DNA of 64,000 bases from a bacterium (GTDB lineage Bacteria > Cyanobacteriota > Vampirovibrionia > Gastranaerophilales > UBA9971). How positions within the stretch are numbered: position 1 is the stretch's first letter; each line of letters opens with the position of its first letter. Positions 10,073 to 14,677 of the stretch are shown one piece after another. The translations under genes and the position numbers were made by a program. The stretch spans positions 1 through 64,000 of the forward strand of contig JBAWVS010000007.1 of NCBI GenBank assembly GCA_037147175.1. The letters are read 5' to 3'. Under the pieces are notes generated by a model that searched no databases, was not told where the DNA came from, and saw nothing but the letters and a program-made list of their open reading frames with translations.

Positions 10073-10828
10073 ATGAGTATAGATGTTTCAGCAAAAATAA
10101 ACCAACTGTTAAAAAAAGCACCTCATAATGTTGTTTTAACGACTGCATGGCTCGCAGAACAAGGAATCAGTTCTCAATTAATGGCAAAATATGTAAAATA
10201 TGACTGGTTTACTTGTATTGCTAAAAGTGCATATATTCGTTCTGAAGAAAAAGTGACTCTTGAGGGCGGGCTTTTTGCTCTGCAATCACAATTAGGACTT
10301 TCTATACATATCGGAGCCACAACGGCTTTGTCTTATCAAAATATAAGTCATTTTCTCAAAACTAATAACGAGAAAATTTTGTTTGGAACCAGAAAAGAAA
10401 CTCTTCCTGTCTGGTTTGAGAAATACTTTTCAAATTTTAAAATTATTAAAACTGAGTTTTTGCAAAAAGATGTGGGAATTATTGATTACAATGCAGGTGA
10501 TAATACTATAAAAATATCTTCAGTTGAAAGAGCAGTATTAGAAGTTTTATACCTTTGTCCTGATAAAGCCAGTTTAAAAGAATCGTATCAACTTATGGAA
10601 ATGTTGGTAAATGTTCGACCCGGTCTGATGCAGGAGCTTCTGGAAAAATGTAATTCTGTTAAGGTTAAACGACTATTTCTTTATATGGCAGAAAAAATAA
10701 ACCACGACTGGCTTAAATATATAGAAACAGATAAAATAGATATAGGAAAAGGGAAAAGAGTTGTTTCGAAAAATGGAAAGCTTGATAAAAAATATAATAT
10801 AGTTATAGAAAATCTGGAAGAAATTTAA
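10073..10828 (+). CDS. abiEi: Orphan AbiEi-type antitoxin (type IV toxin-antitoxin)
   Basis: This 251-residue protein of the AbiEi family is built as an N-terminal winged-helix domain (about 1-60), a middle AbiEi domain (HIGATTALSYQ) and a C-terminal domain ending in the typical GKGKRVVSKNGKLDKKY. AbiEi represses its own operon and neutralises the AbiEii nucleotidyltransferase. Here no abiEii follows. The gene ends 12 bp before a direct-repeat copy, and the next pair downstream uses a different, DUF6088-type antitoxin. It is full length, so either the toxin was lost or it controls the neighbouring systems. Its promoter suggests leaderless translation. Confidence 0.85.
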   Translation: MSIDVSAKINQLLKKAPHNVVLTTAWLAEQGISSQLMAKYVKYDWFTCIAKSAYIRSEEKVTLEGGLFALQSQLGLSIHIGATTALSYQNISHFLKTNNEKILFGTRKETLPVWFEKYFSNFKIIKTEFLQKDVGIIDYNAGDNTIKISSVERAVLEVLYLCPDKASLKESYQLMEMLVNVRPGLMQELLEKCNSVKVKRLFLYMAEKINHDWLKYIETDKIDIGKGKRVVSKNGKLDKKYNIVIENLEEI

Positions 10829-10840
10829 TGTTTGGAAGTC

Positions 10841-10942
10841 GTCAAAACCGTTTATAGCGCAAAGACAAACTGAAAATCACTACCCGCGTTCAATAATTAA
10901 AAATAATTCTATAAATATTTTTCAATAATATCTTGTTACTAA
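10841..10942. repeat. Direct repeat DR-A, right copy (102 bp)
   Basis: This is the second copy of the 9428-9515 repeat, in the same orientation. A 14-bp insertion (TACCCGCGTTCAAT) lies in the middle. It starts 12 bp after the orphan abiEi stop codon. Confidence 0.9.
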
Positions 10943-10978
10943 TCAGTTTAAGTTACAAAGTTCAAGTGCTCAAAAGTA

Positions 10979-11008
10979 TATTTTTCCACTTAGTTTGACA
11001 TATTTTTA
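10979..11008. repeat. Direct repeat DR-B, left copy (30 bp)
   Basis: The 30 bp beginning TATTTTTCCACTTAG match 12793-12822 at 26 positions in the same orientation. The two copies bracket the abiE antitoxin-toxin pair. The left copy contains a TTGACA that could act as a -35 box. Confidence 0.65.
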
Positions 11009-11065
11009 CACATTGATTTTCCAGAAAAAATATGTTATTTTTATGGAAAAATAGATGGAGTAAAT

Positions 11066-11683
11066 ATGAAAAAAACCGCAAAGAATCTAATAATTTCACG
11101 AATTTATGGAAGGGGCAGGGGTTGGGCATTTACCCCAAATGATTTTATTAAGGATTTTAAGCGTTGGGAAGTGGATGACTCTCTTGAAGATTTAACAAAT
11201 GAGAATAAAATTCGCAGAATTATGCGCGGACTTTATGACTACCCATTATATAGTGAGATTTTAAATAAGACTGTAGCACCTGATATGGAACAAGTTGCAA
11301 ATGCTTTGGCGCGCAAGTTCGGTTGGAGAATTCAGCCAACAGGAGAAACTTCTCTAAATTATTTAAATTTATCAACACAAATAATGGGAAATTACATTTA
11401 CTTATCGGATGGTCCAAGCAAAAAATATGATATACTCGGGCAAACTTTAGAATTTAAACATACAACGTTAAAAGAAGCTACTTTGCAGAATAAAATTGCA
11501 GCTACAGTTGTTCAAGCAATTAAGGCAACAGGAGAAAGCAATATTACTCATGAATTTCTAAATAAACTAAAAGAAAAATTCAGCAATGATGAATGGCAGA
11601 AAATCAAAAAGGATAGCGTTAAAGCTCCTATATGGGTTTATAATTATATTTCTGAAGTTGCTGCAAAAAAGGAGAATGAATAA
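11066..11683 (+). CDS. AbiE-system antitoxin (DUF6088 type)
   Basis: This is a 205-residue antitoxin of a type IV toxin-antitoxin system. The N-terminal winged-helix part contains the signature GRGRGWAFTPNDF and a later IMRGLYDYPLYS, typical of DUF6088 proteins that precede AbiEii toxins. The middle GETSLNYLNLSTQ segment fits the AbiEi effector domain. It is expected to repress the operon and neutralise the toxin. A GGAG ribosome site precedes the ATG. Its stop codon overlaps the toxin start by one base (TAATG), so the two are translationally coupled. Confidence 0.88.
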   Translation: MKKTAKNLIISRIYGRGRGWAFTPNDFIKDFKRWEVDDSLEDLTNENKIRRIMRGLYDYPLYSEILNKTVAPDMEQVANALARKFGWRIQPTGETSLNYLNLSTQIMGNYIYLSDGPSKKYDILGQTLEFKHTTLKEATLQNKIAATVVQAIKATGESNITHEFLNKLKEKFSNDEWQKIKKDSVKAPIWVYNYISEVAAKKENE

Positions 11684-12660
11684 TGTTAGAAAAAATTGCG
11701 GCGGCGGCATCAGCAGAAAGAAAAGCAATTTTTCTTGAAGCAGCCTCTATAAAAAATATTAGTGCAGCTATGATTGAAAAAGATTTTTGGGTTTGTTGGA
11801 CGTTAAATAGACTCTTTTCTGATTCTGAATTACAAAGAACTCTTTGCTTTAAAGGAGGCACATCTCTTTCAAAAGTCTTTGGAGTAATCGAACGCTTCTC
11901 TGAAGATATAGATTTAATTTTGGACTGGAACACTATTACAAAGGGGAAAGAGGTCATACAGCCATCCAAAAATAAACAAAATAAGAAAAATGAAGAAATT
12001 AACGAAGCTGCTCAAAATTATATTTCCACAACTTTAAAAGATAAAGTCTCGAAATTAGTTGGCGACATTTGCGCTATAACTGTAGATGAATTTGACAAAA
12101 ACACTTTACAAATAGAATATCCTAAAGGTATTTCAGATTTATACTTGCTGCCGCATATAAAACTTGAAATAGGTCCTCTTGCTGCTTGGACTCCAAATGA
12201 AAAACATCCTATAAAACCTTATATTGATAACATAAATAAAAATATAAAAATTGCTGATATTATAGTGCCTACGATAATTCTGGAACGCACCTTTTGGGAA
12301 AAGGTTACTATTCTGCACAAGGAACATTTTAGAACAGTAGAAAAGGCTAATCCTGAAAGATATTCGCGTCATTACTATGATTTATACAAAATCGGAAATT
12401 CTAAACTTTTTGAAGCTGCATTATCAAGAATAGATTTATTGGAACAGGTAGTTGAATTCAAAAAAAGATTTTATCCTTGTGCTTGGGCAAGATATGATTT
12501 AGCTTTGCAAGGAAGTTTAGAATTATTACCGACAGAAGAAAATATTAAATATTTAAAAGATGATTACGAAAAAATGAAAGGAATGATTTTCGGTGAATAT
12601 CCAAGCTGGGAAGATATTTTAGGGTACTTGAAAGAATTGGAACGCAAACTCAACTTATAA
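11683..12660 (+). CDS. abiEii: AbiEii-type nucleotidyltransferase toxin
   Basis: This 325-residue DNA-polymerase-beta-fold nucleotidyltransferase has the AbiEii signature FKGGTSLSK (56-64) followed by RFSEDIDL (71-78), with catalytic Asp75 and Asp77. Downstream it has the conserved ERTFWEKVTILH and SRHYYDLYKI segments. AbiEii toxins halt growth during phage infection, and relatives add nucleotides to tRNA 3' ends. The gene is second in the operon after its DUF6088-type antitoxin and appears complete. The pair lies between two 30-bp direct repeats. Confidence 0.92.
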   Translation: MLEKIAAAASAERKAIFLEAASIKNISAAMIEKDFWVCWTLNRLFSDSELQRTLCFKGGTSLSKVFGVIERFSEDIDLILDWNTITKGKEVIQPSKNKQNKKNEEINEAAQNYISTTLKDKVSKLVGDICAITVDEFDKNTLQIEYPKGISDLYLLPHIKLEIGPLAAWTPNEKHPIKPYIDNINKNIKIADIIVPTIILERTFWEKVTILHKEHFRTVEKANPERYSRHYYDLYKIGNSKLFEAALSRIDLLEQVVEFKKRFYPCAWARYDLALQGSLELLPTEENIKYLKDDYEKMKGMIFGEYPSWEDILGYLKELERKLNL

Positions 12661-12822: not shown

Positions 12823-12902
12823 TATAAACAACAACAAAAATTATTTTCAAGATATATGTAAATCAGAGCAAACTATATATAAACAAAACAGGGGTTTCTA
12901 TA

Positions 12903-12949
12903 CGCTCATAACCCAAAGGTCGTTGGTTCAAATCCAGCCCCCGCAACCA
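12903..12949 (+). tRNA. 3' fragment of an initiator tRNA (fMet) gene, attachment-site scar
   Basis: The segment begins CGCTCATAACCC (CAT anticodon and 3' anticodon stem). It continues with AAGGTCGTTGGTTCAAATCC (T-arm) and ends CCCCGCAACCA (acceptor strand with CCA). The order matches the 3' 60% of bacterial initiator tRNA. The D-arm and the 5' acceptor strand are absent upstream, so this is not a functional gene. Tyrosine recombinases commonly integrate at tRNA 3' ends and leave such a duplicate, so this is most likely an att site. A full tRNA-fMet copy is not in the window. Confidence 0.85.
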
Positions 12950-12952
12950 ATC

Positions 12953-12991
12953 ATAACAAGGGTTTCGCCGATTAAGCGAAACCCTTGTTAT
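12953..12991. terminator. Perfect 16-bp hairpin after the tRNA fragment
   Basis: Arms 12953-12968 and 12976-12991 (ATAACAAGGGTTTCGC and its exact complement) enclose a 7-nt loop and are followed by TTTGTTTTTG. It begins 3 bp past the CCA end and is probably the original tRNA terminator. It could alternatively be part of the integrated element's end. Confidence 0.75.
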
Positions 12992-13155
12992 TTGTTTTTG
13001 TCCACATGTTGTCCACTTGATAACTTTGTAGCCTATAAAAATACTAATAAATTTTATATGTTTATTCGGTAAATGAAAAGGCGGAAGCGAAAGCAAAAAT
13101 CAAGTATAGTGTGCCTTTTGGGCATGTTTTAAGGTCTGAGATGACTTTCCATTAT

Positions 13156-13191
13156 TTACCAATACTTACCAGCCTTTACCGTTTTGTTACC
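13156..13191. repeat. Phased TTACC repeats (4 copies, 10/10/11 bp apart)
   Basis: TTACC occurs at 13156, 13166, 13176 and 13187, almost exactly one helical turn apart. Further copies lie at 13207 and 13285, and an inverted copy at 13276. This is the first of three phased arrays in the gene-poor stretch 12950-13773. Confidence 0.6.
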
Positions 13192-13397
13192 GCTTTTTTT
13201 GAAAAATTACCATGCTGGGTTTTAAATATTACTCAAAAGGTTTATTAAATAAGGGTTTAAGGCATGGCGTATAACGGTAAACATTTACCGCTTTTCATTA
13301 TAGAGGAATGTCCCATTCGTAACTTGCAAAAAATCGCCGCTTAAATGAAACGGTGCGGCTCTTGCCCTAGTTTGTCGGTCTGCTTAAAATGTCCGAA

Positions 13398-13436
13398 ATG
13401 GGATATTTATGGGACTAGAATGGGAGTAAAATGGGA
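13398..13436. repeat. ATGGGA direct repeats, four copies at exact 11-bp spacing
   Basis: ATGGGA begins at 13398, 13409, 13420 and 13431, with AT-rich spacers. Single inverted copies (TCCCAT) flank the array at 13311 and 13514. Exact 11-bp phasing puts all sites on one DNA face, as in operator or iteron arrays. Confidence 0.8.
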
Positions 13437-13670
13437 CTTGATAATTTTTTTATCTTTCGCCTTTATCCCTAACACATCTATCATACAGGCATATTTTTTG
13501 CAGTATAGTAATATCCCATTTTTTTGCGGAGGGGGAAGTTTAGGGAAGTTTGGGTTATGAGCGGGTTTTAGCACCTTAACTTGTTTTAATAAATATTAGC
13601 AGTATTTAGTCATACCAAGGTTTTGCAAGGTTCGTTAAATCCGATTAATATTTATTAAAATACAAAAATA

Positions 13671-13703
13671 TACACCATATCTGCACCAAATATGCACCAG
13701 ATT
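13671..13703. repeat. TRCACCA direct repeats, three copies at exact 11-bp spacing
   Basis: TACACCA at 13671 and TGCACCA at 13682 and 13693 follow each other every 11 bp. A fourth TGCACCA sits at 13748, just upstream of the ribosome site of the small gene at 13774. Confidence 0.7.
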
Positions 13704-13773
13704 TTTAGGTCTAAAAAATGATTATTATTATAAAGTTATAAAAAACCTGCACCAAATTTTAAGGAAAAAGAAT

Positions 13774-13935
13774 ATGCCAAGAAAAAAACAAGAACCAAAA
13801 TTTATTAAAAAATTTTCAGAAGAAGAATGTTTACCTCCCAAAGAATTTTGGGAAGGATACAATGCTTTGATAAAAGTGCTAGTTCACCATTATAAGGAAT
13901 ATCAAGATATTGGCAATGAAAATACTTACAATTAG
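13774..13935 (+). CDS. Small basic/acidic protein, 53 residues, unknown function
   Basis: This short reading frame starts MPRKKQEPKFIKKFSEEE and continues with LPPKEFWEGYNALIKVL. A good ribosome site AAGGAAAAAG lies 4 bp before the ATG, and the frame has a helical, charged composition typical of small plasmid or phage proteins. It is the only convincing gene in the 1.3 kb between abiEii and the HEPN gene. It lies immediately downstream of the TGCACCA array, which could control it. No family is recognised. Confidence 0.55.
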   Translation: MPRKKQEPKFIKKFSEEECLPPKEFWEGYNALIKVLVHHYKEYQDIGNENTYN

Positions 13936-13965: not shown

Positions 13966-14367
13966 TTAATTTTGACAAATTTTGATATAATTTTCTATCG
14001 TATTAATAAAACCTTGAGCATCTTCAAAACATTTATTTACTATATCTTTATCAGGCTTGTAAGTAAACTCATAATCGCTTTTCATCCTGTTTTCATAAGC
14101 GGTTTTATAGGTTATGAATATTCCGTTATCAAATATATTATTTTCATGAATAAATTTTTTATTGAACCAGCCAAGCAATTGGCTATGTTTTGAGGTTATA
14201 AAATCATTTAAATACCCAAGAGCCATAACAGAATAAAAAATAGCATAATAAATTCTGTTTTGTGCAGTATTTAATCTTGCTCCTTCTAAAGCATACTTGG
14301 CATCATCAAGAGCTTCTTTTGACTTTAATAGAGAATTTGCTATAAGAATATCCTTATGCTGCTTCAT
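13966..14367 (-). CDS. HEPN-domain toxin of a HEPN-MNT pair
   Basis: This HEPN-family protein of about 133 residues has a four-helix-bundle composition. The conserved motif is AYENRMKSDYEF (R...DY form of the HEPN RNase motif). An N-terminal SKEALDDAKYALE segment is typical of HEPN proteins paired with minimal nucleotidyltransferases. In such pairs the HEPN protein is an RNase toxin that the MNT partner inactivates by adenylylating the Tyr of the motif. The start at 14367 (MKQHKDIL) overlaps the MNT gene by 14 bp. A longer frame to 14385 exists but is less likely. Confidence 0.85.
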   Translation of the reverse strand: MKQHKDILIANSLLKSKEALDDAKYALEGARLNTAQNRIYYAIFYSVMALGYLNDFITSKHSQLLGWFNKKFIHENNIFDNGIFITYKTAYENRMKSDYEFTYKPDKDIVNKCFEDAQGFINTIENYIKICQN

Positions 14368-14677
14368 AATAAATACCCTTTTCAACGACTTCTCTTAAAA
14401 AGATAGGGTTTTTCTCTAAATCATTCATGGTATAAGGGTGATAATCAATAAATAAATCACTTTCATATTCTAATAATCCGATAATTCCTGCTAATTTGCG
14501 TTCTTCTTCATAACTTAATTTTTCTGAGAAAATTATGATTATATCAACATCACTATTTTCAGTATAAGTACCTTTAGCCATTGACCCATAAAGATAAGTG
14601 CCGATGAAATTATTAAATACAACGGCAAGTTTTTCATTAAGTTTATTTATAACTATATTGATTTTTTTATCTGGCAT
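14354..14677 (-). CDS. MNT-domain nucleotidyltransferase antitoxin
   Basis: This 107-residue minimal nucleotidyltransferase has the catalytic signature GSMAKGTYTENSDVDI at 31-46 (Asp43 and Asp45) and a third acidic residue in SDLFIDYH (Asp78). MNT antitoxins AMPylate the HEPN toxin to neutralise it. The gene comes first in the operon, with the HEPN gene overlapping its 3' end, which is the common order for this type VII toxin-antitoxin class. All catalytic residues are retained. Confidence 0.88.
   Translation of the reverse strand: MPDKKINIVINKLNEKLAVVFNNFIGTYLYGSMAKGTYTENSDVDIIIIFSEKLSYEEERKLAGIIGLLEYESDLFIDYHPYTMNDLEKNPIFLREVVEKGIYYEAA

Follow-up and report, generated by a model that had tools for sequence, protein, structure and literature searches.

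The 64-kb window, that is, the whole stretch of DNA analysed here, carries the 3′ half of an initiator tRNA-fMet gene (12905–12949, + strand), which runs from the anticodon loop to CCA. The 5′ half is missing and ARAGORN called no tRNA in the window, but the fragment matches an intact homologue called as tRNA-Met (CAT) in G006, locus L105, from CTCATAACCC to the 3′ end. It is followed by a tRNA-associated terminator hairpin of the GGGTTTCGCC...GGCGAAACCC type (12954–12991, +), recognized by its self-complementary match; the same hairpin also follows the intact tRNA-fMet in G006. The short sequence TTTTGTCCACATGTTGTCCACTTG comes next (12996–13019, +). It has a near-identical copy in a genome of the same genus, G002, between a tRNA-Val and a long reverse-strand sequence that was read by eye as an integrase gene, and is probably the remnant of a tRNA-inserted integrase element. 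Beyond it lie two modules with helically phased short repeats (13055–13298 and 13299–13555, both +), a third array (13671–13754, +) and, on the reverse strand, a HEPN/MNT-nucleotidyltransferase toxin-antitoxin pair (13966–14677; PF05168, PF01909). A 15-bp exact inverted copy of the tRNA segment CGCTCATAACCCAAA (12903–12917) is found at 13549–13563 (−), overlapping the end of the module 2 homology, and ties the anticodon region of the broken tRNA-fMet to the module 2 breakpoint. No further copies of this segment were found in the assembly, and therefore an intact initiator tRNA gene is either missing or lies in a gap.

The repeats had been listed in a first-pass annotation, and re-reading of the letters bears out all of its positions: TTACC at 13156, 13166, 13176 and 13187; ATGGGA at 13398, 13409, 13420 and 13431 with outer inverted copies (TCCCAT) at 13311 and 13514; and T(A/G)CACCA at 13671, 13682 and 13693. 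Overlooked were inverted copies of the first motif (GGTAA) at 13068 and 13276, extra copies of TTACC (13207, 13285) and one more TGCACCA, the fourth, at 13748. When the window was scanned for 7-mers with one mismatch in at least three copies 10–11 bp apart, four arrays came out; three of the four are those named above, all inside 550 bp. In 60 dinucleotide shuffles, with one mismatch allowed, a mean of 0.77 arrays of at least three copies arose per 64 kb, arrays with at least two registers arose 0.1 times, and four-copy arrays did not arise. Likewise, exact 5-mers repeated four times at 10–11 bp, or 6-mers repeated four times, were absent from 40 dinucleotide shuffles of 64 kb. Chance, which the first-pass annotation had considered as an explanation in such AT-rich sequence, does not account for the TTACC and ATGGGA arrays: they are not expected from shuffled sequence and are far beyond chance. 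The TRCACCA array is weaker taken singly (three copies, three registers). The spacing recurs in related elements, where the first-pass annotation had proposed to look for it, and conservation holds for the ATGGGA and TTACC arrays, whereas the TRCACCA array has no homologue in 146 genomes.

Module 1, with TTACC specificity, is a solo left end delimited by homology to C28 and G006. In a search with 12880–13780 as query, 13053–13296 matched C28:20000–20243 in the same genome (74%). Across 146 genomes of the order, this half also matched G006:C1:15504–15712 (69%), from a different genus of the family. A transposase gene lies downstream of both homologues; in C28 other genes intervene, and in G006 the homologue begins shortly after a tRNA-Ala. 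Module 1 opens with TATATG at 13055. Its terminal site, TTTATTCGGTAAAT (13061–13074, +), is inverted relative to the array and invariant in the window, C28 and G006. The phased array (13156–13211, +) consists of the four TTACC copies plus that at 13207 and is present in C28 as TTACCA in 10-bp steps; the inner site CGGTAAACATTTACCG (13275–13290, +) is identical in C28. The homology ends at the next terminus, so that the end of module 1 is the start of module 2.

Module 2, with ATGGGA specificity, is the left end of a second transposon. It opens with TATAG at 13299 and is delimited by homology to C25 and C22, which is cut off at 13554/13555; within the same genome, 13297–13554 matches C25 at 95% over 258 bp and C22 at 71%. 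The terminal-side inverted TCCCAT (13311–13316, −) precedes the array by 87 bp, the four ATGGGA copies (13398–13436, +) are exactly 11 bp apart, and the inner inverted TCCCAT (13514–13519, −) lies 116 bp after the array start. With at most three mismatches, the full pattern occurs among the 146 genomes only in the window and in C25. The C25 terminus TATAGAGGAATG interrupts an hsdR-like gene, PF11867 homology beginning at the junction, and the transposase follows; in both C22 and C25 the transposase gene is found a few hundred bases downstream of the ATGGGA half. ATGGGA three times at 11 bp was also tried as a stand-alone signature and rejected. A scan of public genomes returned many matches, which were mostly plain tandem repeats in unrelated taxa and, among the matches listed, almost none had inverted copies at both flanks; the direct array alone is therefore not diagnostic. 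ATGGGA at 11-bp spacing also occurs on many contigs of single Bacteroidales genomes (L141, L154, L172, L198, L204 and others in UBA1208; L151, L162, L164, L180 and others in RGIG6559), with the surrounding sequence conserved within each genome.

Across the relatives the motif sequence varies but the layout is constant. A terminus of the type TAT(A/G)G or TATATG is followed about 10–15 bp inside by one motif copy, then, about 80–115 bp in, by a phased block of 3–5 copies in the opposite orientation, 10–11 bp apart; copies inverted relative to the block recur about 115–120 bp beyond its start. Counted from the first copy of the block, the offsets of the inverted copies are −87 and +121 for TTACC in module 1, −87 and +116 for ATGGGA in module 2 and C25, −69 and +103/+114 for TGGGAT in G008, −111 and +101 for TGTCCG in the CGGACA group, and +101, +111 and +121 in the TTGCAC group. 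In elements of the last type, with an array of three and three inverted copies about 100 bp away (L113, 2024–2400; L124, 1560–2000, and L115, about 4437, both reverse complement), the transposase lacks the N-terminal ~90 residues. The terminus is sharp. The same type of start is seen in both window modules, C28, G006, C25, C22 and G008 and in seven other elements with unrelated flanks, and elements with closely similar left regions in unrelated flanks share the same first base, TATGG or TATAG followed by TTTTTCGGACAC. Unrelated genes lie directly upstream of the transposase in several relatives. With other genes between module and transposase, as in C28, the module is therefore an end of the element and not the transposase promoter. 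The right end was not found: beyond the modules, terminus copies, direct or inverted, were not above shuffle level, and a second motif cluster was absent from the roughly 6–18 kb inspected.

Downstream of the module homologues in C25, C22, C28 and G006 there is in each case a gene for a MuA/TnsB-like transposase. The transposase matches PF09299 (E = 3.6e-13) and, weakly, rve; its nearest solved structure is ShCAST TnsB, a weak match (E = 5e-4). The gene order in C22 is transposase, TniB-like ATPase (PF05621 TniB, 1.5e-7; AAA_22, 6e-15), a 255-aa protein and a tyrosine recombinase. The third gene of these elements is usually a winged-helix protein, either the tyrosine recombinase or a protein standing in its place. 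In G137 it encodes a 568-aa protein in which a Mu I-gamma DNA-binding domain (PF09039) is fused to a tyrosine recombinase (PF00589; L075:16650–18356); the corresponding parts are two separate genes in C22. No TnsA was found in the family, and the proteins scanned near its transposase genes, a set that covers part of the cargo, include no TniQ/TnsD. The genes seen in the elements scanned are mostly for defence and toxin-antitoxin systems, and McrBC-, Mrr-, AbiE- and OLD-like defence genes neighbour several of them (AbiE and OLD assigned by Pfam, McrBC and Mrr by eye from translations). The window also holds a SIR2-HerA pair (77–2798) and AbiE-type genes (10073–12660); the DUF6088-AbiEii pair is found downstream of the G137 element as well (L076:1299–2887). 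A gene resembling a terminase small subunit recurs near or within elements (L086:10673–11329, L006:6360–6833), which could hint at phage-satellite biology. MuA/TnsB-like transposase genes are present in 95 of the 146 genomes of the order examined. A search of viral contigs with the transposase gave no match, and literature searches turned up no account of such elements from this lineage.

The contig of the window yielded no transposase of the family, and the module 2 homology stops at 13554; the window therefore carries a relic. Judged from the sequence, the TTACC and ATGGGA modules are best read as leftover left ends of two different transposons, stacked behind a broken tRNA, and the stack comprises two or perhaps three such ends. 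The HEPN/MNT genes downstream look like leftover cargo. The first-pass annotation had thus rightly placed the arrays among the cis-acting sequences of integrated elements, but its single control region dissolves: at least the first two arrays are left ends of two elements arranged head to tail. Stacking is also seen elsewhere. In the window, in C22 and in G106, which repeats one and the same 233-bp unit, an older module is immediately succeeded by a new terminus, and C28 has a 23-bp stub. Other left regions lie behind tRNA-Val (C22, G008), tRNA-Ala (C57, G006), tRNA-Asp (G106) and tRNA-Ile (G059).

What do the arrays do? We favour assembly of a left-end complex by the element's own transposition proteins, at odds a little short of even, with a recombinase resolution site as the main rival; neither role is proven. 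In the favoured model the arrays would be cis-acting left ends of two members of the family. A DNA-binding protein of the transposition machinery, encoded by the element, would bind all motif sites, the phased block and the flanking copies would fold the left end into one complex, and this complex would mark it as the active, oriented end. The position at the terminus, the independence from cargo and the layout favour this role. That the sites are bound, and by which protein, is part of the prediction. Assignment of the array to the transposase by co-variation had to be abandoned, as the motif does not track the transposase N-terminal domain: ATGGGA is common to C22 and G008, which are 48% identical there, while C22 and C28, at 72%, have different motifs. 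This counts against the end-complex model. Ends of the Mu and Tn7 type normally start with TG. Against the model stand also the terminus, which does not start with TG, and the right end, where no counterpart was seen, although ends bound by a transposase are expected on both sides.

The array has so far been found at one end only, which speaks for the rival reading of the modules as res- or irs-like resolution or attachment sites for the tyrosine recombinase of the element, with the phased and inverted copies as accessory sites. New elements would then insert beside occupied sites, as Tn5053 transposons do, which hunt res sites (PMC11406308), and the junctions beside older modules fit such a preference. 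A tyrosine recombinase is indeed the third gene, or comes right after it, in C22, G008, G006, C57, G009 and G137, the ATGGGA and TTTACCG relatives (C22, G008, G006) being among them. Moreover, a serine or tyrosine resolvase is usual in Tn7-like elements that lack TnsA (PMC11406308), and the irs of Tn4430-type elements also combines inverted and direct repeats, Tn5401 having a DR2 copy near each end (PMC7157771). However, the third gene of the elements with CGGACA modules has no recognizable recombinase domain, the motif differs between G008 and G006 although their recombinases are 56% identical, and the segment from array to inner site holds no core-type inverted repeat above shuffles (the C28 and G006 segments, possibly cut at the wrong place, were left out of reliance). 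Candidates that convinced by eye, such as GCCTCTAT...ATAGAGGC in L061, were not above shuffles. We regard a resolution site as unlikely, though well within reach. Less likely again would be operators for an immunity-type repressor acting on promoters within the module, as in Mu, which the transposase may share. The gene order is Mu-like, and inverted sites flank a segment with promoter-like hexamers read by eye, but such hexamers are common in AT-rich DNA, other genes separate module and transposase gene in C28, and the close relatives showed no repressor gene next to the module. The 11-bp spacing of direct repeats had led the first-pass annotation to think of initiator-binding sites of pMV158-type plasmids. 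As iterons of a plasmid-type origin the arrays are very improbable: in all relatives with readable neighbouring genes the array sits at the left end of a transposon with a MuA/TnsB-like transposase, the site is chromosomal at a tRNA, no replication initiator was found among the scanned ORFs at 10.1–15.9 kb, which encode toxin-antitoxin genes or belong to no family, and no rolling-circle initiator gene lies beside the 11-bp repeats in neighbouring ORFs or in the relatives inspected.

The third array, TRCACCA at 13671, 13682, 13693 and 13748, must be judged separately. A TATG-type junction at 13556 (TATGAG) precedes its start by about 115 bp, a distance comparable with modules 1 and 2, and shuffles yield arrays as good as this one about 0.1 times per 64 kb. 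A third, unrelated left-end module starting near 13556 is thus possible, if uncertain. On the other side, nothing convincingly similar was found in the 146 genomes, and the copies, unlike those of modules 1 and 2, all have the same orientation and run up to the ORF start at 13774. We give slightly better than even odds to a chance cluster or a local operator of this 53-aa ORF rather than a transposon end.

Altogether, the arrays are real and conserved, and can be read as a stack of transposon left ends but not as a plasmid origin. It is tempting to speculate, though we hold it for a doubtful generalization, that this family with its one-sided left end uses a standardized nucleoprotein scaffold of terminus, site, phased block and site, whose layout stays constant while the whole recognition sequence is exchanged. 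Insertion would fall preferentially beside an older copy, at its inner or terminal site, and tRNA loci would in this way build up a readable stack of left-end modules. Should the modules be what they look like, phased left ends would be a simple signature by which to spot these elements, which often have defence cargo, as well as their solo remnants and their insertion hot spots, in DNA that is otherwise unannotated. They would also be a natural experiment, in which end-recognition sequences change while the geometry of the complex stays fixed.

Iterons of the pMV158 type are direct repeats spaced by 11 bp. The arrays share this spacing, but stand in a chromosomal, transposon-end context in which no initiator gene was found. 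Also similar are the TnpI irs sites of Tn4430 and Tn5401, with their tyrosine recombinase, direct and inverted repeats and extra recombinase sites near the ends (PMC7157771); here, however, no significant core inverted repeat is present, and the transposase class differs, theirs being of the Tn3 family. The left end and operators of phage Mu resemble the modules in the MuA/MuB-like pair and in having several sites, in both orientations, within the leftmost 250 bp or so, but no phage structural genes were identified in the elements inspected, and their cargo consists of restriction and abortive-infection genes. The likenesses to Tn7-like and Tn5053 elements (TnsB or TniA with TnsC or TniB) are a DDE transposase with a Mu-transpos_C domain, a TniB-like AAA ATPase, no TnsA found, an accompanying site-specific recombinase, a place of insertion downstream of tRNA genes, cargo for defence, and arrays of binding sites, here predicted, at the end. 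The family differs from them in that no TniQ was recognized, the third gene encodes a winged-helix, Mu I-gamma or tyrosine recombinase protein, and no right end was found in the region inspected; its terminus is of the TATAG type and not TG, and its sites are helically phased at 10–11 bp with flanking inverted copies.
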